A DNA stretch of 64,000 bases, from the NCBI GenBank assembly GCA_963921825.1, contig OY997590.1:46517039-46581038 (forward strand), written 5' to 3'. Source of the DNA: Erodium maritimum (taxonomy: Eukaryota; Streptophyta; Magnoliopsida; Geraniales; Geraniaceae). The position numbers and the translations under genes are program-made. Shown here in pieces: positions 9,615-54,379 of this stretch (within the stretch, counting starts at the first letter, position 1; each line of letters starts with the position of its first letter). Below the pieces are notes generated by a model. That model was not told where the DNA came from, ran no database searches, and saw only the letters and a program-made list of their open reading frames with translations.

Positions 9615-9691
9615 CTCCCCCTCAAGTTAGAGCATGGAGATTCATAATGCCCAACTTGAAAAAGGAAACTTGTAATCGGCTTTGTTGGATG

Positions 9692-9939
9692 GTGCAAACG
9701 GCTACTCGTCTCGTGGCCGACGGTGCAAACGACATCTCGTCTCATGGCCGACGGTGCAAACGGCTACTTGTCTCGTGGCTGACGGTGCAAACGACTACTC
9801 GTCTCGTGGCCGACGGTGCAAACGACATTTCGTCTCGGGGCTGACGGTGCAAAGGTTATCTCGTCTCGGGGCCGACGGTGCAAAGGGCATCTCATCCCGT
9901 GGTTGACGGCACAAACAATATCTTCTCTCCTGATCAACA
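9692..9939. repeat. 31-bp minisatellite, array 1 (about 8 units)
   Basis: Units of the form GTGCAAACG(G/A)C(T/A)... ending GTGGCCGACG repeat every 31 bp, with decay in the last units. The frames over this array are repeat translations, not genes. Confidence 0.9.
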
Positions 9940-10313: not shown

Positions 10314-10399
10314 CTCCCCCTCAAGTTGGAGCATGGAGATTCGTAATGCCCAACTTGAAAATGCGATTGTAGAACAATCACGTCTTATGCCTTTGGATG

Positions 10400-10585
10400 G
10401 TGTAAATGACATCTCATCTCGTGGCCGACAGTGCAAATGGCATCTCGTCTGGGGGCCGACGGTGTAAACGGCTACTCATCTCGTGCCCGACGTTGCAAAT
10501 GGCATCTTGTCTCGTTGCCGACGGTGCAAACACATCTCATCTCATGGTTGACGGTGTTAACATCATCTCGTCTTGTGATCGACGT
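10400..10585. repeat. 31-bp minisatellite, array 2 (about 6 units)
   Basis: Same unit as the array at 9692-9939 but more diverged, in the second internal domain and in the same orientation. Confidence 0.85.
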
Positions 10586-10748
10586 TGTAAATGGCGCAAA
10601 AGGTAGAACACGGTTGTGGTTGATGACCACGATACGGAAGTGAAATAGCTAGAGTAACACAAATAAAATAAAAATTAGGATCAAATATGTCCTTCAGATG
10701 CCCTGTCCACTTGTTAGAACCACAAGCTATCAAGTGGGCAAAGTTATT

Positions 10749-13527: not shown

Positions 13528-13874
13528 GGGCTCGTCGGTCATATAGGTGTTGGCCTCCGACGAGGTGTTTAGGCTTCAGTGCCATCCTTCGAAGTCTTGT
13601 GGATTCTGTTTCTAAGGGGTTTAGTATCGGTGGCGATTTGCCTCTGACTCATCTCTATCGTGTGCGGTGCGGGCCGTTGGTGTGTCAATGCCTTTTCTAT
13701 TTGTTTGGATTGAGTTTTTGATGAGATGAGGTGTTTAATACTGCAAGTGTTGGTAAGAGGATTGGGGTGTTTTGATTGGTCTCGGAGGGCTGCTTTCGGG
13801 TTACATCGTCTGTTTGGTAGTTTGCGGTCTCGTCCAAGGAGCTTCTCGCGGATGCAGGATCGAGGTTGTAATTC

Positions 13875-14124
13875 GAGTGCCATGCTCGTGGTGGTGGTTT
13901 TCCGAGCGACATGCTCGTTGTTGTCTATTGAGCGCCATGCTCGTTGTAGTTTACTGAGCGCCATGCTTGTGTCTGTATTCCGAGCGCCATGCTCGTGGTT
14001 GTATTCCGAGCGCCATGCTTGTGGTCGTATTCCGAGCGCCATGCTCGTGGTTGTATTCCGAGCACCATGCTCGTGCCTAGTTTATGAGCGCCATGCTCGT
14101 GTCAGGTTTATGAGCGTCATTCTC
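13875..14124. repeat. 26-bp minisatellite, about 10 units
   Basis: Units of the form GAGCGCCATGCTCGTGGTTGTATTCC repeat every 26 bp, the first slightly longer. Each holds a GAGC/GCTC inverted repeat around GCCAT. Frames across it (13569-14042 minus, 13726-14154 plus) are repeat translations. Confidence 0.9.
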
Positions 14125-26349: not shown

Positions 26350-27000
26350 TCAATGTACAGAGGGTGAGGTGAGCTCAGCTATCACCTCAGTATTTGAAAG
26401 AATTAAGTCCAAACCAGCAACACTCTTTTCTTCTGGGTCAGAATCATCCATGGTTGAGAGATATTGATGGATCTGGTCATCACTGCAGTCTGCTTGCAAA
26501 CCAATTTTCTTTCCAAAAGACCAGGCCTTTTTTGCCTTTAGAAGAGAGTTTGGGTGTTGAGTTGTTGAGGCATCTGTCAATCTTGATCTGGTCTCATAAT
26601 TATGAGTGGAAGATAGATGTCTCTGAGTTTTCCTTTTGTGTTTTAACAGTTTCAACTTTGTATTTGCCAAGGTAAGAGAAGCTGGGGAGCCTTTTGTGAG
26701 ACCAAGGAAGTCAGAGATCTCATTGACTTGTGTATCTTGTAGCAGTAGCTGAGGATGGGAAATGGGGGTAATCTGGTCACTAAAATTATCATCCAAGCCA
26801 TACTGATGGGAAGTATTTGTCCCATCCACTGATAAATTGTGTACTATATCATCTGTATTTAATAAACCCTTTTCCAATGTGTTTGGTTCAGTAGCCAATA
26901 TAGAAAGGTCTTGCATCTTCTCACTTTGCCATAAATGCTGATGTGCCAAGGTACTTGATCCCTTGGAATAAGGAAGAGTGGGTTGTTGAGTGACTAGATT
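26350..27000 (-). pseudogene. LINE-2 ORF1, C-terminal part (3' of gypsy insertion)
   Basis: An open frame of about 215 codons from the gypsy junction to TGA at 26350-26352. Its first codons continue the frame that enters the gypsy element at 45473: the last LINE codons before the junction and the first after it share the duplicated AGATT. It is acidic with a K-H-K-R-K basic patch and is probably the disordered tail of ORF1. Confidence 0.85.
26996..27000. repeat. Gypsy target site duplication, left (AGATT)
   Basis: Identical to AGATT at 45468-45472. Confidence 0.9.
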
Positions 27001-27458
27001 TGTAATAACCACTCCCGGTCAACGCTAGTCAAACCTGCGAAAAACAGGAAAATTTAAATTTTTTGAGCAGACACTGAATTGAACCGGAATTGGACCCCGA
27101 GGGTCATACCGGACTTAAGTTGGCCCCTTTATCGACCAAAATGAGTTCCGGGGGACTCAGGGCAACTTTCTGATCAATTTGGGAAATGTTGACTTTTTGT
27201 TGAAAAAGTCAACCGAGCAACGTTTTGGTCCATTCGAGGACCGTTTTGGATCCAAAAAGCTTAGCCGTCGTCGCAGCGGTCTTAGTTGAGCCGTTTCCTT
27301 GTGGCTCGCTAAGTTTCGTAATTTTTGGGAAAAAGTGCCCGTTCGGGGCCCAAAACGTCCGTTTTTCGCAAAACTGATTGGAAAATATCAACTAGATATT
27401 TTCCGAAAGGTGTGGGACCCACCTTGACACTTGTCAATTATATGGTGGTGTTAGTTTT

Positions 27459-27477
27459 GGGGGGGGGGGGGGGGGGG
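27459..27477. repeat. Poly-G tract, 19 bases, in gypsy 5' LTR
   Basis: The same place in the 3' LTR (43037-43042) has only 6 G. Confidence 0.95.
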
Positions 27478-29019
27478 AAGGTGTGTTGGCCGAAATTAAG
27501 GGTTAAAGGAAGAAAAAAAAATAGAATTTGAGTTAGTTTATTTAAAATAGAAAGGAAGAGAGGGTTTAGAGAGAGAAGGAGAAGAAGAAGAAGAAGAAGG
27601 AAGAGAGGGAAAGCTAGGGTTTGAAGAGTATCCAACCCTTGGATCGTCTCAAGACGAAGAGCAATTGTCTTCCCCTCGTTCTCCTCTTGGGTAAGCACCG
27701 AACCGATCGTCATTTTGATAGTTTTCAAATGTTAAGGTTTGTGTAAAACTATTAGTTTAAGGTGGTTTTGGTGTTGGGGTAATTGTTGGAGACGTTTTAG
27801 AGGTGTTGGAGGTTTAATTGCACGTTTTCCGGTGACCGGAGGCTCGGGAGGAGCTCCGGCCACCGTGGGTGGTTCCCGGCCGGCCATGGGGTGGCTGGCC
27901 GGAGGTGGTACCAGCCACCACCATGGTGGCCGAACCCCCCTTGAGCCCTAGGAGCTCTCGGCCAAGTGGGATGGTGGGGCCCATGTTCTCGGGTTATCGG
28001 GTTTTGTGTTTCGGGTGGTTTAAAACGTTCCCCGGACCATTTATCCTAAACCGAATCGAAAATTGGAATTAAATTGGAGAAGTTGTAATTGACGGGTTTT
28101 AGAAACTTTAAACGTTAATTAATTGACTCGGAAGTCGGAATTCGATTCCGTCAAGGGCGTTGGGTTCCTTGAAATATTCTAAGACCGTAGAAACGAAAAC
28201 GGGGGCTTTAAGAGCCCTGGAAGGCAATTATTGAAAACCGGGCAGATTCGCCATGTCGGGCGAATCGGGCCTTTAAGGGTCCTTTATCGACAATGTCGAG
28301 TAATTGGGAAGTTTGGGAGTGATCGACATTGTCAGGGTTAAGTTTGGACATCGAGTTTAATGGTTTTCAGTTTATTCCTGCGAGTGGTTAAGTGCCTTTA
28401 ATTTGTGTTCTTTTAGATCGTGCCACGGACCGAGCAAGGGAAAGTTGGGTGAGTGACTGAGATCATCACCGGAGCTCGTGGTTGGCTTTTGGGAGAACAC
28501 GCACGAGGTAGGGAAAAGTAGCCGGATCTCGGCCCTGATTGGGGAATGTTAACAGTAGAATTGCATGTGACACCGGGGTGTCGTGGGTTGAGTAGGTTTA
28601 TTTAAATATTAGAAAGGCATGATACGGGATCGTAGTAGTTATTAGAAATGCATGATACGGGATCGTAGCGATTACGAGAAAAGCATGCGACACTTAGTAG
28701 TATCGTAGGAGCAGAGAACTTAGCGTTAATTGATTTACTGGAGGCATATGACCATGCTCGGAGGTTGTTTGTGAACTTATCGATATTAGGAGTACTGGAG
28801 GCATATGACCATGCCCGGAGGTTGATTGAGAAACTGTTGATATTAGGACTGTTGGAGGCTTGGGTTAAGCCGGAGGTTGATTGTTTATTTTGGCGTCTTC
28901 GGTGGCCTTGAGAGCCCGTGTATTATTATTGTTGAGTCTTGGGTGGCCATGAGAGCCCGTGTTGTTATTCGTGTTTGGGTGGCCATGAGAGCACGTACTT
29001 TACTGTGGGTGTTTTAGCT

Positions 29020-29790
29020 GGCTTATGAGTTAGAGTCTCGGTAAGTTGCAAGCGTGTTTTATCGTTGAGTTTTGGGTGGCCATGAGTGCCCGTGGGGTTG
29101 TTGAACCCGTGTCTTTACCTTTGGTGTTTTGGGTTGCCTTGAGAGCCTGTGTACTAAGGTTGGTGTCTTTGGCTGGCCTACCGAGTTAGAGTCTCCGGGG
29201 GGTTGCAAGCTTTCTTTAGCTGGCTTACGAGTTAGAGTCTCGGTAAGTTGCAAGCATGTTTTATGGTTGGTGTCTTGGGAGGCCGTGAGTGCCTGTGGGG
29301 CTGTTGAGTCCGTGTCTTACTGTCGGTGTGTCTTGGGAGGCCGTGAGTGCTTGTGGGGCTGTTGAGTCCGAGTTTTACGGTTAGTGTCTTGGTGGCCATG
29401 AGTGCCTGTGAGTGTTGAACCTGTGTTGTTACTGGTTGTTAATTTTGCTTGTGATTGTGTTTGTGATTGTGATTGTGATTGTGCTTACCGGAGGTTGGGG
29501 GCCCGCTTCCTGAAACGGGGGTCCATGAGCACACGCGTCTGCATGTTCAGACGGGGTAGGGGGCCCGCCCGCCAATAAAGGGGTCCTGGCCGCGCGTGTG
29601 TGGTTTGGGTTTGTGAGCATACCTTGGCTGGCTTATGGGTTAGAGTCCTAGTAACTTGCAGCATTTTCCGGCTGGCTTATGGGTTAGAGTCCCAGTAAGT
29701 TGCAGCATTTTCCGGCTGGCTTATGGGTTAGAGTCCCGGTAAGTTGCAGCATTCTTGGGTTGGCCTGACCGGGTTAGAGTCCCGGGATGG
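29020..29790 (+). repeat. Tandem hairpin units in gypsy 5' LTR
   Basis: Repeated units carry arm, loop TTAGAGT, complementary arm, then (T)AAGTTGCA. The hairpins lie at 29022-29045, 29177-29205, 29224-29247, 29632-29655, 29676-29699, 29720-29743 and about 29763-29790. The last three complete ones (29632, 29676, 29720) repeat exactly every 44 bp. Between them (29250-29480) lie other short repeats of the form GGCC(A/G)TGAG(A/T)GCC(C/T)GTG and a (TGTGAT)n microsatellite near 29448-29482. Confidence 0.85.
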
Positions 29791-30337
29791 CGTTCTTGGC
29801 AGCTGGTTTGCGATCCTTTGTGATCTTGTTTGGTGTGCGATCCTTCATGATCTTGTTGGTGTGTGATCCATTGTGATGTTGTTTGGTGTTGCGTAACTTT
29901 CTTTGAGTCCTTGAAAGAGGTCGTCAATGGTTGTGTTGGGTCTACTTTACGGGTCAGGGTGTCGAGTTGGTCAGGGAAGGCAACAATGGGTGTATGTTCA
30001 GTTAGAGTACTTGGGTTGGGGATGGTGTTCCCCGGTGTTGAGTTGTTGTTGGTGTTACTCACCCCTAGCTGCTTTTCCTACAGGTACTGTTCGTGGGACG
30101 GACTAGGTGAGCTTCTGAAGCTTGAAGAGCTTGAAGCGGGTTTTTGGGTGTTTTGAGTCTAGTGACGTGTACCTCGTTTTTGTCCACTTGTTGGGACGTG
30201 TTTTAAGTTGTAATTATTATTTTGTGAACTAAATTGGTATTTTAAAGTGATTTAATGAAAACAGGTTTCAAGCGTTTTTATGTTTTTAAAACGTTCGCGT
30301 CCCGAGTTCGGTTTACTGAAATTGGGGCGTGACAGCT

Positions 30338-30349
30338 TGGTATCAGAGC
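30338..30349 (+). other. Gypsy primer binding site (tRNA-Met)
   Basis: TGGTATCAGAGC, three bases after the LTR end, matches the complement of the 3' end of plant initiator tRNA-Met. Confidence 0.93.
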
Positions 30350-31989
30350 TCGAGGTTTCACACCTCGGACTGTACGTCAATTAGGTGGGGAGAGTCGAGT
30401 CGGGAGAGTCCCGTCGTACGTTGGGTACGCAGGTCGGGAACCGTGTGTAGACCCGTGGTGTTGTGAGTCCTGCTTGTGTTTGTGTGTACGTGCAGTGTTT
30501 TCTTGCTGTCTTGCTGATTGTTGTTGCTGCGTGAAATGTTTTTAAGCTGTCGCGGGTCGACTCAGGAGCGCTCCTGTAGTCGAACGTGACGGTGCTGATA
30601 TGAAGTCGGTACAACGTAGTTCGGGGACGCCTGGACCGGGTTGTAACTGCGTGATGTCAAGTATGAGGTTTTTAAAAATGAAGTGGAGAAAGCTTTACAA
30701 AAATTTGATTGTTTTGATGTTGTTTGACGCCGTGGGTGTTTGTGTTTGACTTAGATTGGCCCGGTGGGCGTGGTTCGGTGTTGGTGGGCCCGGTGGGCGT
30801 GTCTTGATTTTGTGTGATGCCGTGGGCGTTTGTGTTTTACTTCGTTTGGCCCTGTGGGCGTACTGTGTTGGTTGTTGGTTGGCCCGATGGGCGTGTTGTG
30901 GAGTTTTGTTTGGCCCGGTGGGCAAGGTTCGACTTCGGTTGTTGGCCCGGTGGGCGGGTGTCGTTGTCCTTGTTGTTGCAGTTATGACTGTTTGGCCGGG
31001 TTGGCTTGTGGTTGAGGTTGAGTGACTCGTGTTTGGTCTTTGTTTTGGTACTTGGTTTTTTTGATTCGTGGTCGAGTGTTTGCGACACACGAGCGTGTGG
31101 GTCGCTAGGAGAAGGGTAGGATGCGAGTGTCCTAGGATCGACGTGACGGGCAGTTAGGGGCGAAACGGTCGCGGCTACGGGACGGACCACGGGCCGACCT
31201 GGTACGAGACCAGGAAGGGCTCGCTGGTCCGGTCCGGCAGCCAGCATGGACCGGCTGGCACGCCGGCCCGGCAACCAGCCCGGCACGGACGGCGTGCCGG
31301 CCCGGAAGCCCACATGGACCGGCCCACCTGCCGGACCGGTCTTGCCGGGTTTCAAAAAAAAAAGGAGAGAAAAAGGAAAAATGTTTGGTTTCGTTGTGCG
31401 TTTAGGTTTGTGGTTGTGTGACTCGGTTTTTGTTTGTGTGGTTGAGCGTTGGTTTTACGGGTTTGTGTTCGCGGTTGTGAGTTGTAGGGGCCGTGGTCCT
31501 GGTGAACGGTTGGGTTGTTGTTGATTTTTTTCGCTTCGCATTATTATAAATTAGGCACTAATAGGGTGAGCAATGGTGTGTGCTCAACTGAGAGCGTGAG
31601 TTTTCCCGTCCTGAGGTTTCCCTACGTGATCGGGTATTTGGGTGATTGAGGTTGTGAACCATAGTGATTGCTGAATTGAGGAAGTGTTTCCCGTGTCGAG
31701 GTTTATCTTACTTGAGCGAGTACTTGAGGTGTTGTTAGCGTGAGCAGTGTGACGTTTGGCATCAGGTTCTGAGGTAGTGGTTTGCCCTGGTTCGATCGAT
31801 AAGTCTGTAGTGCTTTACTAGTATGCCATAATCGAACGGGTGTCCGTGGAGGTGAGCATAACGCTCATCCCCTTTACTACTTTTCCCGCAAGGGACGAGT
31901 AGCGAACACTGGTTTGGTTGCGGAAAGTTACAAGTAATGCCTAGAGGACCGTGTGAGGGTTACACTAGACCTTACCAGGGTGACTAATG
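30350..31989 (+). other. Gypsy leader without recognisable gag
   Basis: No frame matches a gag capsid or CCHC knuckle. It holds repeated GGCCCGGTGGGCGTG motifs (30755-30960), a very GC-rich palindromic block (31200-31350, with GGCACGCCG at about 31257 and CGGCGTGCC at about 31289), then low-complexity DNA. Gag has been lost or replaced. Confidence 0.5.
30755..30960. repeat. Dispersed GCCC-N3-GGGC motif array
   Basis: About seven copies of (T)GGCCC(G/T)(G/A)TGGGC(G/A) spaced 25-50 bp apart. The stem GCCC/GGGC is kept while the three loop bases vary (GGT, TGT, GAT). Confidence 0.75.
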
Positions 31990-33990
31990 GAGTGGGTGTT
32001 CGGTTTCCGTTTTGGGTGTCAGTTTCATTGGATGTCGGGTAATCACACTCGTTTGTTCGTCGAGTTGTGTTGAGAGGTTGGGGCCGAGTTTAGAGCCGTT
32101 GAGTCCACCCCTGCGTCGTGACACGCCGGTTGGTGGTGGGGTGGTGTTGACTAGGGTCTGTCGTGCCTGCGGAGTTAGAGAAGCGAACCGGTACAGGAGG
32201 TTCGAGAGAGGGCTCAAGAACCACGATGTTGGATCGAGCCCTCACCCCGAGGATCGACTATGTTCGGAGTTGGTAGGCATGACGACGGTAGTGGAGCGAG
32301 GTCTTGGAGAGACCGCGAGGGTCCGTGAGTTTTAGCAGCGACTGAGCTGGTGCGTGTATCCGTGGGAAGGATACCCACGAAATGACCGCCTTGGCGTGAT
32401 CCTGGGAATGGATTGGCGAGCGAAGTACCAAATCATTATCGACTGTTACAGGCGACGAGTGACGGTGTCAACAGGCAACACGAAAGGTTCATGTATTCTG
32501 GGCAGTTGGAGCAGAGTTTCTCTTGTCGGCTTGTCTACAGTAAAGGAAGTATTGGCCGTGCAGAGTCGAGAATTACCGGGAGTGGCGTGCGAGTTCCCCG
32601 AGGTCTTCCCTAAGGAATTGAGCGGGTTGCCACCAGTTCGTGAGGTGGAGTTCGGGATTGACCTGGTGCCGGGAACGACAACGATATCGATGGCGCCTTA
32701 CAGGTTCGCGCCAGCCGAGTTGACCGAGCTGAAGAGTCAGCTCGAGGAACTTCGGGAGAAGGGGTTTATTCGTCCGAGCACATCGTCGTGGGGAGCGCCA
32801 GCACTCTTCGTGAAGAAGAAGAGTGGAGAGCTTCGGATGTGCATGGACTACCGGAAAATGAACCGGGTTACGGTGAATGACCGATACCCGATGCCGAAAA
32901 TTAATGACCTGTTCTACCAGTTGAGAGGGTCGACGTATTTCTCGAAGATTGACCTGCGATCCGAATACTACCAGTTGCGAGTCCGAGAGGGGGACGTCGC
33001 AAGGACTGCATTCCGGACATGCTATGAACATTACGAGTTCTGGGTGATGACTCTGAACTACCGGACGCACCTGCAGCGTTCTTGGACCTGATGAACAGTA
33101 TATTCCGACTGTTCTTAAATCAGTTTGTGGAGGTGTTTTGTGGACGACCAGGATCCGGGAGATAGTTGCCGGCGGTACGGACGCCGAGGGCTGGGATCGT
33201 TGTACTAAATGGGGAGTTACGGTATCGTGGAGGTTTGTACATACCGCGTGACGACGGAGGCGACGAGCTACGAGAGTCGCAGCATTCACGTCTAACAGTG
33301 CACGTGAATAGCACTAAGAGGAGCCCGACATCAGGTGGCATGTCTAGTGGAGCGGGATGCGGAGAGCGGTCGCGGAATTAGTATCGCGATGCCTCGCCCG
33401 TCGGCAGGTGAGAGCCGAACAACAGCGTCCCGCTGGATTATTGCAGCCACCGCCGGTTGCACGGTGGAAGTGGGGGCTCGTCACGATGGGTTTCGTGAGT
33501 GATTGGCCGAGTTCGCCTACAGCAACAGCTTTTAGGCCAGTATCATGATGGCACCGTTCGAAGCGTTGTGTGATAGGCCGTGTCGGTCGCCCGTGTGCTG
33601 GGCAGAAGTGAGAAATAAGAGGTTACTGGGTCTAGAACTGGATCGAGAGACAGCTGAGTTGGTCGTGCCAAAGCGTGAGCGGTTGAAAACCGCGCAGAGT
33701 CAGCAGTAGATATGCTGACTGACGGCGCCGACCTCTCGAGTCAGAAATCAGTGGTCATGTATCCGGGAGGTGAGCCCGAAAGATGGACTAATGCGTTTCA
33801 ACCGCGGCAGAGGCGGGTTAGCCGCGCGGTGTATCGGGCCTTTCGAGGTCTTGAGTACGTCATTGAATGGGCAGATGTCGAGGTAACGGGTGATTTCCCG
33901 TGTAAGGAAAAACCGATGCGGGAAAGGGATCCACGAGAGCAGGTCCTGCGCGGAAAGGTTATCCGCTTAGAGCTGGTGTTGTGGCGACAC
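31990..33990 (+). pseudogene. Gypsy pol remnant: protease, RT, integrase pieces
   Basis: About 32040-32410 is an aspartic-protease remnant: C-V-E-R-L-G, D-T-P-V-G-G, V-C-R-A-C, then V-I-L-G-M-D-W at its end. RT runs about 32560-33160 with [27 protein letters not shown] and F-S-K-I-D-L-R-S. A frameshift near 33055 is followed by D-A-P-A-A-F and a V-D-D in another frame. RNase H is absent. At about 33230-33500 the integrase zinc region is recognisable (V-S-R-C-L, A-G-L-L-Q-P), then the core is deleted up to a piece with M-A-P-F-E-A-L and R-P-C-R-S-P-V-C-W (about 33545-33605). The frame 33712-33990 gives R-E-Q-V-L-R-G-K-V-I and V-L-W-R-H, the chromodomain start, cut by copia-A. Confidence 0.85.
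33986..33990. repeat. Copia-A target site duplication, left (GACAC)
   Basis: Identical to 42452-42456. Confidence 0.92.
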
Positions 33991-42578: not shown

Positions 42579-45467
42579 TGTAATAACCACTCCCGGTCAA
42601 CGCTAGTCAAACCTGCGAAAAACAGGAAAATTTAAATTTTTTGAGCAGACACTGAATTGAACCGGAATTGGACCCCGAGGGTCATACCGGACTTAAGTAG
42701 GCCCCGTTATCGATCAAAATGAGTTCCGGGGGACTCAGGGCAACTTTCTGATCAATTTGGGAAATGTTGACTTTTTGTTGAAAAAGTCAACCGAGCAACG
42801 TTTTGGTCCATTCGAGGACCGTTTTGGATCCAAAAAGCTTAGCCGTCGTCGCAGCGGTCTTAGTTGAGCCGTTTCCTTGTGGCCCGCCAAGTTTCGTAAT
42901 TTTTGGGAAAAAGTGCCCGTTCGGGGCCCGAAACGTCCGTTTTTCGCAAAACTGGTTGGAAAATATCAACTAGATATTTTTCGAAAGGTGTGGGACCCAC
43001 CTTGACACTTGTCAATTATATGGTGGTGTTAGTTTTGGGGGGAAAAGGTGTGGAGGAGGTGTGTTGGCCGAAATTAAGGGTTAAAGGAAGAAAAAAAAAT
43101 AGAATTTGAGTTAGTTTATTTAAAATAGAAAGGAAGAGAGGGTTTAGAGAGAGAAGGAGAAGAAGAAGGAAGAGAGGGAAAGCTAGGGTTTGAAGAGTAT
43201 CCAACCCTTGGATCGTCTCAAGACGAAGAGCAGTTGTCTTCCCCTCGTTCTCCTCTTGGGTAAGCACCGAACCGATCGTCATTTTGATAGTTTTCAAATG
43301 TTAAGGTTTGTGTAAAACTATTAGTTTAAGGTGGTTTTGGTGTTGGGGTAATTGTTAGAGACGTTTTAGAGGTGTTGGAGGTTTAATTGCACGTTTTCCG
43401 GTGACCGGAGGCTCGGGAAGAGCTCCGGCCACCGTGGGTGGTGGCTGGCCGGAGGTGGTACCAGCCACCACCATGGTGGCCGAACCCCCCTTGAGCACTA
43501 GGAGCTCTCGGCAGAGTGGTTTGGTGGGGCCCACGTGCTCCGGTTATCGGGTTTTGTGTTTCAGGTGGTTTAAAACGTTCCCCGGACCATTTATCCTAAA
43601 CCGAATCGAAAATTGGAATTAAATTGGAGAAGTTGTAATTAACGGGTTTTAGAAACTTTAAACGTTAATTAATTGACTCGGAAGTCGGAATTCGATTCCG
43701 TCAAGGGCGTTGGGTTCCTTGAAATATTCTAAGACCGTAGAAACGAAAACTGGGGCTTTTAGAGCCCCGGAATGCAATTATTGAAAACCGGGTAGAGAAC
43801 TGCATGATACGGGACCGTAGCGATTACGAGAAAAGCATGTGACACTTAGTAGTGTCGTAGGAGCAGAGAACTTAGCGTTAATTGATTTACTGGAGGCATA
43901 TGACCATGCCAGGAGGTTGTTTGTGAACTTATCGATATTAGGAGTACTGGAGGCATATGACCATGCCCAGAGGTTGATTGAGAAACTGTTGATATTAGGA
44001 CTGTTGGAGGCTTGGGTTAAGCCGGAGGTTGATTGTTTATTTTGGCGTCTTCGGTGGCCTTGAGAGCCCGTGTATTATTATTGTTGAGTCTTGGGTGGCC
44101 ATGAGAGCCCGTGTTGTTATTCGTGTTTGGGTGGCCATGAGAGCCCGTACTTTACTGTGGGTGTTTTAGCTGGCTTACGAGTTAGAGTCTCGGTAAGTTG
44201 CAAGCGTGTTTTATCGTTGAGTTTTGGGTGGCCATGAGTGCCCGTGGGGTTGTTGAACCCGTGTCTTTACCTTTGGTGTTTTGGGTGGCCTTGAGAGCCC
44301 GTGTACTAAGGTTGGTGTCTTTGGCTGGCCTACCGAGTTAGAGTCTCCGGGGGGTTGCAAGCTTTCTTTAGCTGGCTTACGAGTTAGAGTCTCGGTAAGT
44401 TGCAAGCGTGTTTTATGGTTGGTGTCTTGGGAGGCCGTGAGTGCCTGTGGGGCTGTTGAGTCCGTGTCTTACTGTCGGTGTGTCTTGGGAGGCCGTGAGT
44501 GCCTGTGGGGCTGTTGAGTCCGAGTTTTATGGTTAGTGTCTTGTGTTTGTGATTGTGGTTACCGGAGGTTGGGGGCCGCTTCCTGAAACGGGGGTCCACG
44601 AGCACACGCGTCTGCATGTTCAGACGGGGTAGGGGGCCCGCCTGCCAATAAAGGGGTCCTGGCCGCGCGTGTGTGGTTTGGGTTTGTGAGCAGACCTTGG
44701 CTGGCTTATGGGTTAGAGTCCTAGTAAGTTGCAGCATTTTCTGGCTGGCTTATGGGTTAGAGTCCCAGTAAGTTGCAGCATTTTCCGACTGGCTTATGGG
44801 TTAGAGTCCCGGTAAGTTGCAGCATTCTTGGGTTGGCCTGACCGGGTTAGAGTCCTGGGAGGGCGTTCTTGGCAGCTGGTTTGCGATCCTTTGTGATCTT
44901 GTTTGGTGTGCGATCCTTCGTGATCTTGTTGGTGTCTGATCCATTGTGATGCTGTTTGGTGTTGCGTAACTTTCTTTTTAGTCCTTGGAAGAGGTCGTCA
45001 ATGGTTGTGTTGGGTCTACTTTACGGGTCAGGGTGTCGAGTTGGTCAGGGAAGGCAACAGTGGGTGTATGTTCAGTTAGAGTACTTGGGTTGGGGATGGT
45101 GTTCCCCGGTGTTGAGTTGTTGTTGGTGTTACTTGCTTTGTCTGCTAATTATGCCGTAGTCAGTCTGTTATCCGTGGTGGTGAGCGAACGCTCACCCCTA
45201 GCTGCTTTTCCTACAGGTACTGTTCGTGGGACGGACTAGGTGAGCTTCTGAAGCTTGAAGAGCTTGAAGCGGGTTTCTGGGTGTTTTGAGTCTAGTGACG
45301 TGTACCTCGTTTTTGTCCACTTGTTGGGACGTGTTTTAAGTTGTAATTATTATTTTGTGAACTAAATTGGTATTTTAAAGTGATTTAATGAAAACAGGTT
45401 TCAAGCGTTTTTATGTTTTTAAAACGTTCGCGTCCCGAGTTCGATTTACTGAAATTGGGGCGTGACA
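42579..45467 (+). repeat. Gypsy 3' LTR (2889 bp)
   Basis: Same ends as the 5' LTR. It lacks about 404 bp around 43794, has a shorter G run and GAA tract, and keeps about 58 bp near 45133-45190 that the 5' LTR lost. Many point differences from the 5' LTR show that this insertion is much older than copia-A. Confidence 0.93.
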
Positions 45468-45472
45468 AGATT
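45468..45472. repeat. Gypsy target site duplication, right (AGATT)
   Basis: Identical to 26996-27000. Confidence 0.9.
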
Positions 45473-53311: not shown

Positions 53312-54063
53312 TGTCACGCCCCAAATCCGGTATTTACCGGACTCGAGACGTGACCGGAATTAATAGTGGAAAAGCAATAATTAAATACTAAAACTTTTAT
53401 AATATTAAGGTAAGCTCTCTGAAATCAACAACTATGAATAGTTCTAAAACTTAAAATGAGTCAAATAAGTAATGTTTAAAATACATGAGACCAACATAAC
53501 TCTAGTAGAACCCAAAGAAGTCTAAAAGTTCCCGAGCCTAGACCTTCCTAGACATCCGGTACGCCTGTAAAACAGATAGAAACCAAAGGGGATGAGCTTA
53601 CGCTCAGTAGGAAAAACCTTAATAACTCAACCCTTAAGTCAAAGATAAACTGCTTACGAATGTAATTCGTACAATAATGCAATAAGATAAATAAGAAGTA
53701 ATAAGGAACAGAAACGGTTACAACTACGCAATAGTATCAAGGTAACCATAACATAAAGAAATTCATAATAAATGATTTAAAGCCTCAATAAGAGTAAACT
53801 GGGAAATAACAGTATCTTGCCGACCACTTGCTTTCTCAAGCCTCCGATCCATGGATAGATTCTGGGATCACCTCGGTTCCCATAATCCGATCCACCAGAA
53901 TATCCACATCATATCAGATTTTCCCTCGGTCCAGAGGAGGTACATGCATCGGGGCACCGAAACCAATTCGGAAATGCCACCTAAGGACCATATGTCATAG
54001 GGAACCAAGTAGTGCTCCACTGTGACGCAGTTCCTTGGGATGAAACCTTAAGTAACCAGAATC

Positions 54064-54345
54064 AATATCCCGCAGGATCTGCCGAGCCATAGGCTCCTCT
54101 CGTCACTCAATATCCCGTAGGATCTGCCGAGCCGTAGCTCCTCACATCACTCAATATCCCGTAGGATCTGCCGAGCCGTAGCTCCTCACATCACTCAATA
54201 TCCCGTACGATCTGCCGAGCCGTAGCTCCTCACATCACTCAATATCCCGTAGGATCTGCCGAGCCGTAGCTCCTCACATCACTCAATATCCCGTAGGATC
54301 TGCCGAGCCGTAGCTCCTCACATCACTCAATATCCCGTAGGATTT
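54064..54345 (-). repeat. 44-bp tandem array in solo LTR, about 6-7 units
   Basis: Units starting AATATCCCGTAGGATCTGCC repeat every 44 bp with very few differences. Each has an internal GAGC/GCTC inverted repeat around CGTA (GAGCC-ATA-GGCTC in the first unit). Confidence 0.92.
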
Positions 54346-54379
54346 GCCCAACTCCAACCACCACAACGGCACCGGATTA

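Follow-up and report, generated by a model that had tools for sequence, protein, structure and literature searches.

Are the tandem hairpins within the long terminal repeats (LTRs) of a plant retrotransposon kept because the RNA folds, or do they arise as a by-product of repeat turnover? The question is raised by a window of 64,000 nucleotides from Erodium maritimum (Geraniaceae; assembly GCA_963921825.1, contig OY997590.1, positions 46,517,039 to 46,581,038 of the forward strand), in which an array of hairpins at 29020–29790 lies inside the 5′ LTR of a Ty3/gypsy LTR retrotransposon that is chromovirus-like and has long LTRs; a second copy lies in the 3′ LTR at about 44165–44870. An earlier note on this window had described repeated units around a TTAGAGT loop in a gypsy LTR, with arms changing in compensation, and had suggested that a folded RNA or a cruciform is maintained, with packaging, export, dimerisation, termination or translation as conceivable functions. 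Its placement of the array was correct, and the arms, loops and coordinates that it quoted (29022, 29224, 29632, 29676 and 29720) are all in the sequence. Pairing in the array is kept as the sequence changes, and our tentative reading is that the element's leader RNA folds here into stem-loops whose structure may be kept as RNA, to which we give slightly less than an even chance.

The TTAGAGT loop is common to seven units, five of which have a stem with a bulged G, while two are register variants (Table 1). The earlier note had the five and missed the two (29177–29202 and 29764–29790); as these lack the fixed bulge and carry an internal A.G mismatch, the single fixed bulged G then claimed for the array holds in five of seven units, but not in units A2 and B4. 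Stems are about 8–10 pairs long with one bulge. Across a family alignment of 29 distinct copies (two from the window, 27 fetched), the usual states are CTTACGAG/CTCGGTAAG for units A1 and A3, CCTACCGAG/CTCGGGGGG for A2, CTTATGGG/CCCAGTAAG for B1 and B2, CTTATGGG/CCCGGTAAG for B3 and CCTGACCGGG/CCCGGGAGGG for B4. The arm variation first quoted is present, but some of it is rare or private: arm CTTATGAG of the unit at 29022 occurs in 1/29 copies at that place, and the unit at 29632 has CCTAG in 4/29 copies and the form CCTAG..AAC in 1/29. An outer mismatch in this last unit had been named as the sole exception to pairing; it is there, but the same unit also has an inner-stem G.T pair.

Table 1. 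Features of the hairpin array and its host element (window coordinates)
Feature	Position	Strand	Remark
5′ LTR (TGTAATAACC...GGGGCGTGACA)	27001..30334	+	Target-site duplication AGATT at 26996–27000; primer binding site downstream
Intron-like frame CACGAG|GTAGGGAAA ... CTTTTCCTACAG|GTACTG	28508..30083	+	Pattern only; encloses array
Other hairpin unit GGCTT-GGGTT-AAGCC	28852..28884	+	Relative L047 here: GGCAT-TGGTT-ATGTC
Unit A1: CTTATGAG-TTAGAGT-CTCGGTAAG	29022..29045	+	28/29 copies have CTTACGAG here
Unit A2, register variant: CCTACCGAG-TTAGAGT-CTCCGGGGGG	29177..29202	+	
Unit A3: CTTACGAG-TTAGAGT-CTCGGTAAG	29224..29247	+	
Unit B1: CTTATGGG-TTAGAGT-CCTAGTAAC	29632..29655	+	Other copies mostly CCCAGTAAG
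Unit B2: CTTATGGG-TTAGAGT-CCCAGTAAG	29676..29699	+	
Unit B3: CTTATGGG-TTAGAGT-CCCGGTAAG	29720..29743	+	
Unit B4, register variant: CCTGACCGGG-TTAGAGT-CCCGGGATGG	29764..29790	+	
LTR 3′-end stem-loop adjoining primer binding site	30300..30334	+	Kept across families, TCCGG/CCGGA and TTCGG/CYGAA forms
Primer binding site TGGTATCAGAGCTCGAGGTTT	30338..30358	+	
Open reading frame matching protease and reverse transcriptase	32336..33091	+	
3′ LTR, same element	42579..45467	+	Target-site duplication AGATT at 45468–45472

Covariation was scored in alignment A1, comprising 18 units (16 distinct): six from the relative L047 and 12 from the window, whose two LTRs supply 14 (units A3 and B2 were left out for the 3′ LTR). 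Here 88.5% of cells were paired and covariation reached 0.436, against 0.251 ± 0.028 in shuffles, none of 500 attaining the observed score; six slid structures scored lower, at most 0.132. Cells with double changes numbered 21 compared with 8.1 in shuffles (0/500). Shuffles ignore relatedness, and we therefore used a tree-based null in which substitutions were simulated on a FastTree tree, each branch receiving as many changes, and of the same kinds, as parsimony assigned to it, at random arm positions; the covariation of alignment A1 was reached in 0/2000 and 2/2000 runs. Because three of the five double-change pairs in this alignment depend on register variants, which weakens what it can say for the folding of RNA, the tree-based null was repeated on indel-free units: 148 instances (35 distinct) of five units from the 29 family copies and L047, leaving out A2, B4 and one A3 instance with a length change. 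Covariation was reached in 1/2000 and 4/2000 runs, depending on the root, and when restricted to the nine states seen at least twice, all of whose pairs are canonical (100%), in 18/2000 and 26/2000. The earlier note had named a lack of covariation beyond phylogeny, by R-scape, as a refutation; a reduced form of that test, with our own null in its place, did not refute the claim. Double changes in the indel-free set are confined to two pairs, 7-21 (C-G 62, T-A 56, T.G 29, other 1) and 9-19 (G-C 84, A-T 61, other 3). Exchanging arms between TTAGAGT units, in a test that treats units as independent, raised mean folding energy from −10.93 to −6.88 kcal/mol, with 2/20000 permutations as low as the observed pairing.

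Comparison with L047, whose LTR shares 86.5% identity with the window 5′ LTR where the two align and whose units follow the same order from A2 on, adds changes between relatives. Units B1–B4 of L047 are GAG/CTC (the B2 loop being TTAGTGT), while those of the window family are mostly GGG/CCC, B4 included, so that B4 has changed at the same pair as B1–B3 with its own flanks retained. When the 104 pairs of L047 stems were carried onto the window 5′ LTR, 22 fell on gaps, and the remaining 82 comprised 65 unchanged, six double changes, five G.U and six broken; all six double changes were Watson-Crick, none being broken, and slid controls gave 0–3. Carried onto the 3′ LTR, 32/104 fell on gaps, with 59 the same, six double Watson-Crick, four G.U and three broken. 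In the reverse direction the unit at 28852–28884 is added (GGCTT..AAGCC against GGCAT..ATGTC), with a double change from T-A to A-T plus one G.U.

Several results weigh against selection on an RNA structure. The reverse comparison, of 109 window 5′ LTR pairs with L047 (13 on gaps), gave four double Watson-Crick changes, one double change that broke the pair, six G.U and 12 broken, and is weaker because slid controls there reach five double changes. There are few independent double changes: in alignment A1 five pairs carried them, against 3.9 in shuffles (81/500), further pair types showed no excess (all 500 shuffles were at least as high), and the corresponding count for the indel-free units was reached by 613, 216, 61 and 81 of 2000 tree-null runs. 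Of the two paired changes, moreover, decay of CpG can account for the series C-G, T.G, T-A at pair 7-21 as two CpG transitions, because CTTACGGG/CCCGGTAAG is found in 2/148 instances; it does not explain the A-T/G-C change at pair 9-19. The earlier claim of compensating changes is upheld for pairing kept under sequence change (0/500 shuffles; 0/2000 and 2/2000 on the tree null), but its examples reduce to a pair of coupled changes, of which one consists of CpG transitions. Arms vary among copies about as much as the rest of the sequence (0.0125 against 0.0129; 38/3045 cells in arms, 246/19020 elsewhere). Loops, on the side of a kept fold, vary less (5/1015 cells). The fold itself is not exceptional: z-scores of the seven units are ordinary (+0.77 to −2.32; 2/7 below −2), and 28540–29900 holds 7, 1 and 0 perfect stems with a minimum of 5, 6 and 7 pairs, respectively, against shuffle means of 6.2, 1.3 and 0.3. 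As neither the local folding z-score nor the number of perfect stems sets the array apart, stability was dropped as evidence; the hairpins are not unusually stable, and the case therefore rests on covariation.

Some of these points feed the main rival, a neutral turnover of repeats. In it, abnormal strand transfer during reverse transcription, or recombination, makes the units, and template switching inside near-palindromes together with conversion spreads changes between arms and between units, with no selection on structure. It is a serious possibility, though we hold it to be less likely than not. Units B1–B3 are near-identical neighbours, and conversion may have moved sequence from unit to unit; the double changes relative to L047 may go back to no more than two or three events if B1–B3 moved together or conversion touched B4. 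The small number of independent double changes, and arms as variable among copies as the remainder, fit turnover. Template-switch repair should, on the other hand, perfect a palindrome, yet the outer G.U pairs (kept in 142 and 143 of 148 instances), the T.G of B3 and the bulged G persist, and the change in B4 with its own flanks kept also speaks against simple spreading. The array can be viewed as a natural experiment in which selection on RNA structure is set against conversion and strand transfer in tandem repeats.

Whether the dyads act as RNA or DNA was left undecided by the earlier note. Pairs of G.U exceeded A.C by 31 to 0 in alignment A1 and by 36 to 2 in alignment A3 (both structures drawn with G.U allowed), but were 4 to 4 in alignment A2, which leaves out related L050 units; among variants there were seven G.U and one A.C, too few to settle the strand. 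The excess leans towards sense-strand RNA over a cruciform. A DNA-level explanation, in which the dyads are sites of dimeric proteins or cruciforms serving as promoter or enhancer repeats, draws on LTR repeats of other elements that are regulatory or palindromic (PMC2829016; PMC10760457), on the array possibly lying in U3, and on a GTGGGACCCAC palindrome near the LTR start. We judge it decidedly unlikely, since palindromic half-sites would stay constant around a spacer that varies, the opposite of the fixed loop and varying arms seen here, and G.U exceeds A.C in alignments A1 and A3 and among the variants, though not in A2. The GTGGGACCCAC palindrome lies at 27412–27422 of the window and in relatives, and the other LTR starts that were compared all retain GGGACCCAC; this may be a transcription-factor site.

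The closest precedent for such dyads is provided by Sirevirus (Ty1/copia) LTRs, which carry repeated palindromic motifs with a CGG-CCG core whatever bases intervene, one element excepted, situated upstream of the promoter region (PMC2829016; PMC10760457). The likeness lies in many short dyad-symmetric units clustered in LTRs of a plant element, and the difference in the fixed loop, varying arms and Ty3/gypsy host found here. A CGG-CCG core is not present in the array, where arms CTTACGAG/CTCGGTAAG and their variants surround TTAGAGT, and the gene order is not that of Ty1/copia (protease directly before reverse transcriptase in the window; reverse transcriptase before integrase in the relative L036). 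A survey of maize LTR hairpins reports that Ty3 elements show no obvious peak of them (PMC10760457). The same source finds that hairpin regions of maize LTR elements map more small RNAs, raising the alternative that the hairpins matter to the host by feeding small-RNA silencing, the element keeping them for another reason or by chance; with stems of about 8–10 pairs and one bulge, below the 21-nt criterion of that study, this is very unlikely. Tat/Ogre elements bear hypervariable tandem repeats in their 3′ untranslated regions (PMC7004042, citing Macas 2009), and resemble the present family in having family-specific, fast-turnover tandem arrays in non-coding parts of plant Ty3/gypsy elements. 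They differ in that the arrays here are inside the LTR (in some relatives after the primer binding site) and consist of hairpins with paired changes; the Tat/Ogre-type position, downstream of the coding sequence and ahead of the 3′ LTR, is not that of the present array, which is inside both LTRs. The term 'secondary structure' is absent from the text of PMC7004042. Among titles and abstract beginnings of literature on tandem, stem-loop or compensatory changes in LTRs, in which subscription journals were thinly covered, no such array was recognised.

What could a folded leader do for the element? The array is enclosed by signals that look like splice sites (Table 1), and the outline of this intron-like frame recurs among LTRs. 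A sense TGAGCG(n)CTCA hairpin is found in 16 LTRs (window and L031–L050), with AG|G within 60 bases of it in 14/16 and ACAG|G in nine. Exact GGTAGGGAAA lies 0.8–2.3 kb upstream of the hairpin in 10/16 LTRs, and L047 has GAG|GTAGGGAATAG, so that RAG|GTAGGG is kept in 11/16. Of the remaining five, one has GTTAGGG (L032), one has GCAGGG (L046/L050), one has lost the stretch (window 3′ LTR), and two offer little upstream sequence to read (first L036 LTR, L049). The TGAGCG..CTCA hairpin itself is deleted from the window 5′ LTR and present in the 3′ LTR. No spliced-junction copy was found in 349163 bases at 49 loci. A TATA-like sequence at 27439, shared by both window LTRs, is missing from the matching position of the six other LTR starts examined, which counts against the leader reading.

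The array lies upstream of the primer binding site and between these splice-site-like signals. Should it be in leader RNA, its stems would be kept because the sense RNA folds, and Gag or an RNA-binding protein of the host may recognise the hairpins so that the RNA is retained, exported or packaged. Genuine splicing at these signals would confine the array to unspliced genomic RNA, which would make a mark of genomic RNA its most likely role; that the array's specific role is such a repeated mark is rather doubtful. Further still, a leader intron inside the LTRs of this plant's long-LTR chromovirus-like elements, with a fast-evolving train of stem-loops, would amount to a multi-copy packaging-type signal on unspliced genomic RNA, in which the loop of each family might serve as its private recognition code while the arms drift in compensation, a scheme that we consider unlikely. 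Retroviral packaging signals often lie downstream of the splice donor. The leader here would likewise be structured and downstream of a splice-donor-like site, but its units are tandem and multi-copy. Residual conservation in long R regions has been linked to stem-loops (PMC3601003, on LTR structure). According to a review, plant LTR elements are generally without introns, with Ogre and EVADE as exceptions, and RNA export has yet to be studied directly in plants (PMC12786077). The means by which genomic RNA is selected in plant Ty3/gypsy elements is little known, and hairpins that covary within an intron-like leader would offer a concrete, testable candidate for it.

Hairpin arrays were also found in other LTR families of the same genome, sampled as 14 pieces of 10 kb fetched at round coordinates, 8/14 of which had the conserved hairpin or an LTR end. 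Units with a CTGGGA loop (L031, L037, L039) have T-A, A-T and C-G at one pair and gave 56/20000 in the arm-swap test; these arrays (L031:2547–2706, minus strand; L037:9140–9299; L039:1697–1876) occupy roughly the place of the B units in the window family. After the primer binding site of L034 (6300–6545, minus strand) there are six tandem hairpins, GGGG/CCCC four times and GGAG/CTCC twice, around a near-constant CGAGAA loop. These two families share the habit of the window array, which counts in favour of a kept fold. Much of this sample tells against selection on paired arms as a general rule: CTGGGA covariation was not significant on the tree-based null (121/2000 and 204/2000), the arm swap for the L034 CGAGAA-loop units gave 1302/20000, comparisons of L031, L037 and L039 with one another yielded 0–2 double Watson-Crick and 0–6 double broken changes, that is, little or no compensation, and several other arrays have constant arms with variable loops (e.g. 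GACAC..GTGTC, GGCAT..ATGCC) or no compensation. A fixed loop with changing arms is one habit among several in the sampled LTR families, and the difference in array types between families favours turnover. A near-palindrome array, TCACGG-AT-CCGTGA, was seen within the LTR at L034:8505–8623 (minus strand). In a minus-strand LTR at 54062–54370 of the window, there are 6.5 copies of a 44-nt unit in which one loop sequence is shared by two hairpins, GAGC-TACG-GCTC and ATCC-TACG-GGAT; L036 holds arrays related to these TACG-loop units.

A second structure, the stem-loop at the 3′ end of the LTR, was examined in alignment A3, which took 14 of 15 listed LTR ends (13 distinct; L050 left out). Its 11-pair stem is 94.4% paired, and covariation was reached in 4/500 shuffles and 15/2000 tree runs; on the tree-based null the percentage paired was reached in 554/2000 runs and, for the inner five pairs alone, in 265/2000.

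The host element itself has TG..CA ends on both LTRs, flanked by the target-site duplication AGATT. Its primer binding site TGGTATCAGAGCTCGAGGTTT is presumably of the initiator tRNA-Met type, and we take its clade label to be Tekay/Del. Tekay elements of sunflower are the subject of PMC11728184. The open frame in the window matched RVP_2 and RVT_1, protease directly before reverse transcriptase (the two domains tested in the window). In L036 the order is gag, reverse transcriptase/RNase H and integrase, the rve match being below its curated cut-off; the C-terminal end of the integrase frame matches SH3_Tf2-1, and the next frame, of 89 amino acids, gave no Pfam match, whether to a chromodomain or otherwise. 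Of 4708 first-look candidates in a genome search, 40 were scored; all of these were 96–100% identical over nearly the whole query, so the family is a multi-copy one with many members. The two window LTRs differ by large deletions: 28247–28643 of the 5′ LTR is absent from the 3′ LTR, and the counterpart of 45134–45190 (57 nt, including the conserved hairpin) is absent from the 5′ LTR. Part of the internal region (31566–32004) is 77% like part of the L032-family LTR. A plasmid collection gave no match, and Rfam on 26900–30500 gave nothing above the gathering score, with one lower match elsewhere in the LTR. Two IMG/VR matches (L001, L002) were taken as chance, no LTR being found in all of L001 or in 3000/8134 bases of L002; a bacterial promoter and terminator scan was set aside, the host being a plant.

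Elsewhere in the window, about nine 26-nt units at 13860–14101 form a hairpin CGAGC-GCCAT-GCTCG, with no compensated arms seen, shortly before a poly-A stretch in a context that by eye resembles the 3′ end of a long interspersed nuclear element. Two related 31-nt tandem arrays (GGTGCAAACGGCTACTCGTCTCGTGGCCGAC) lie at 9691–9923 and 10399–10595.
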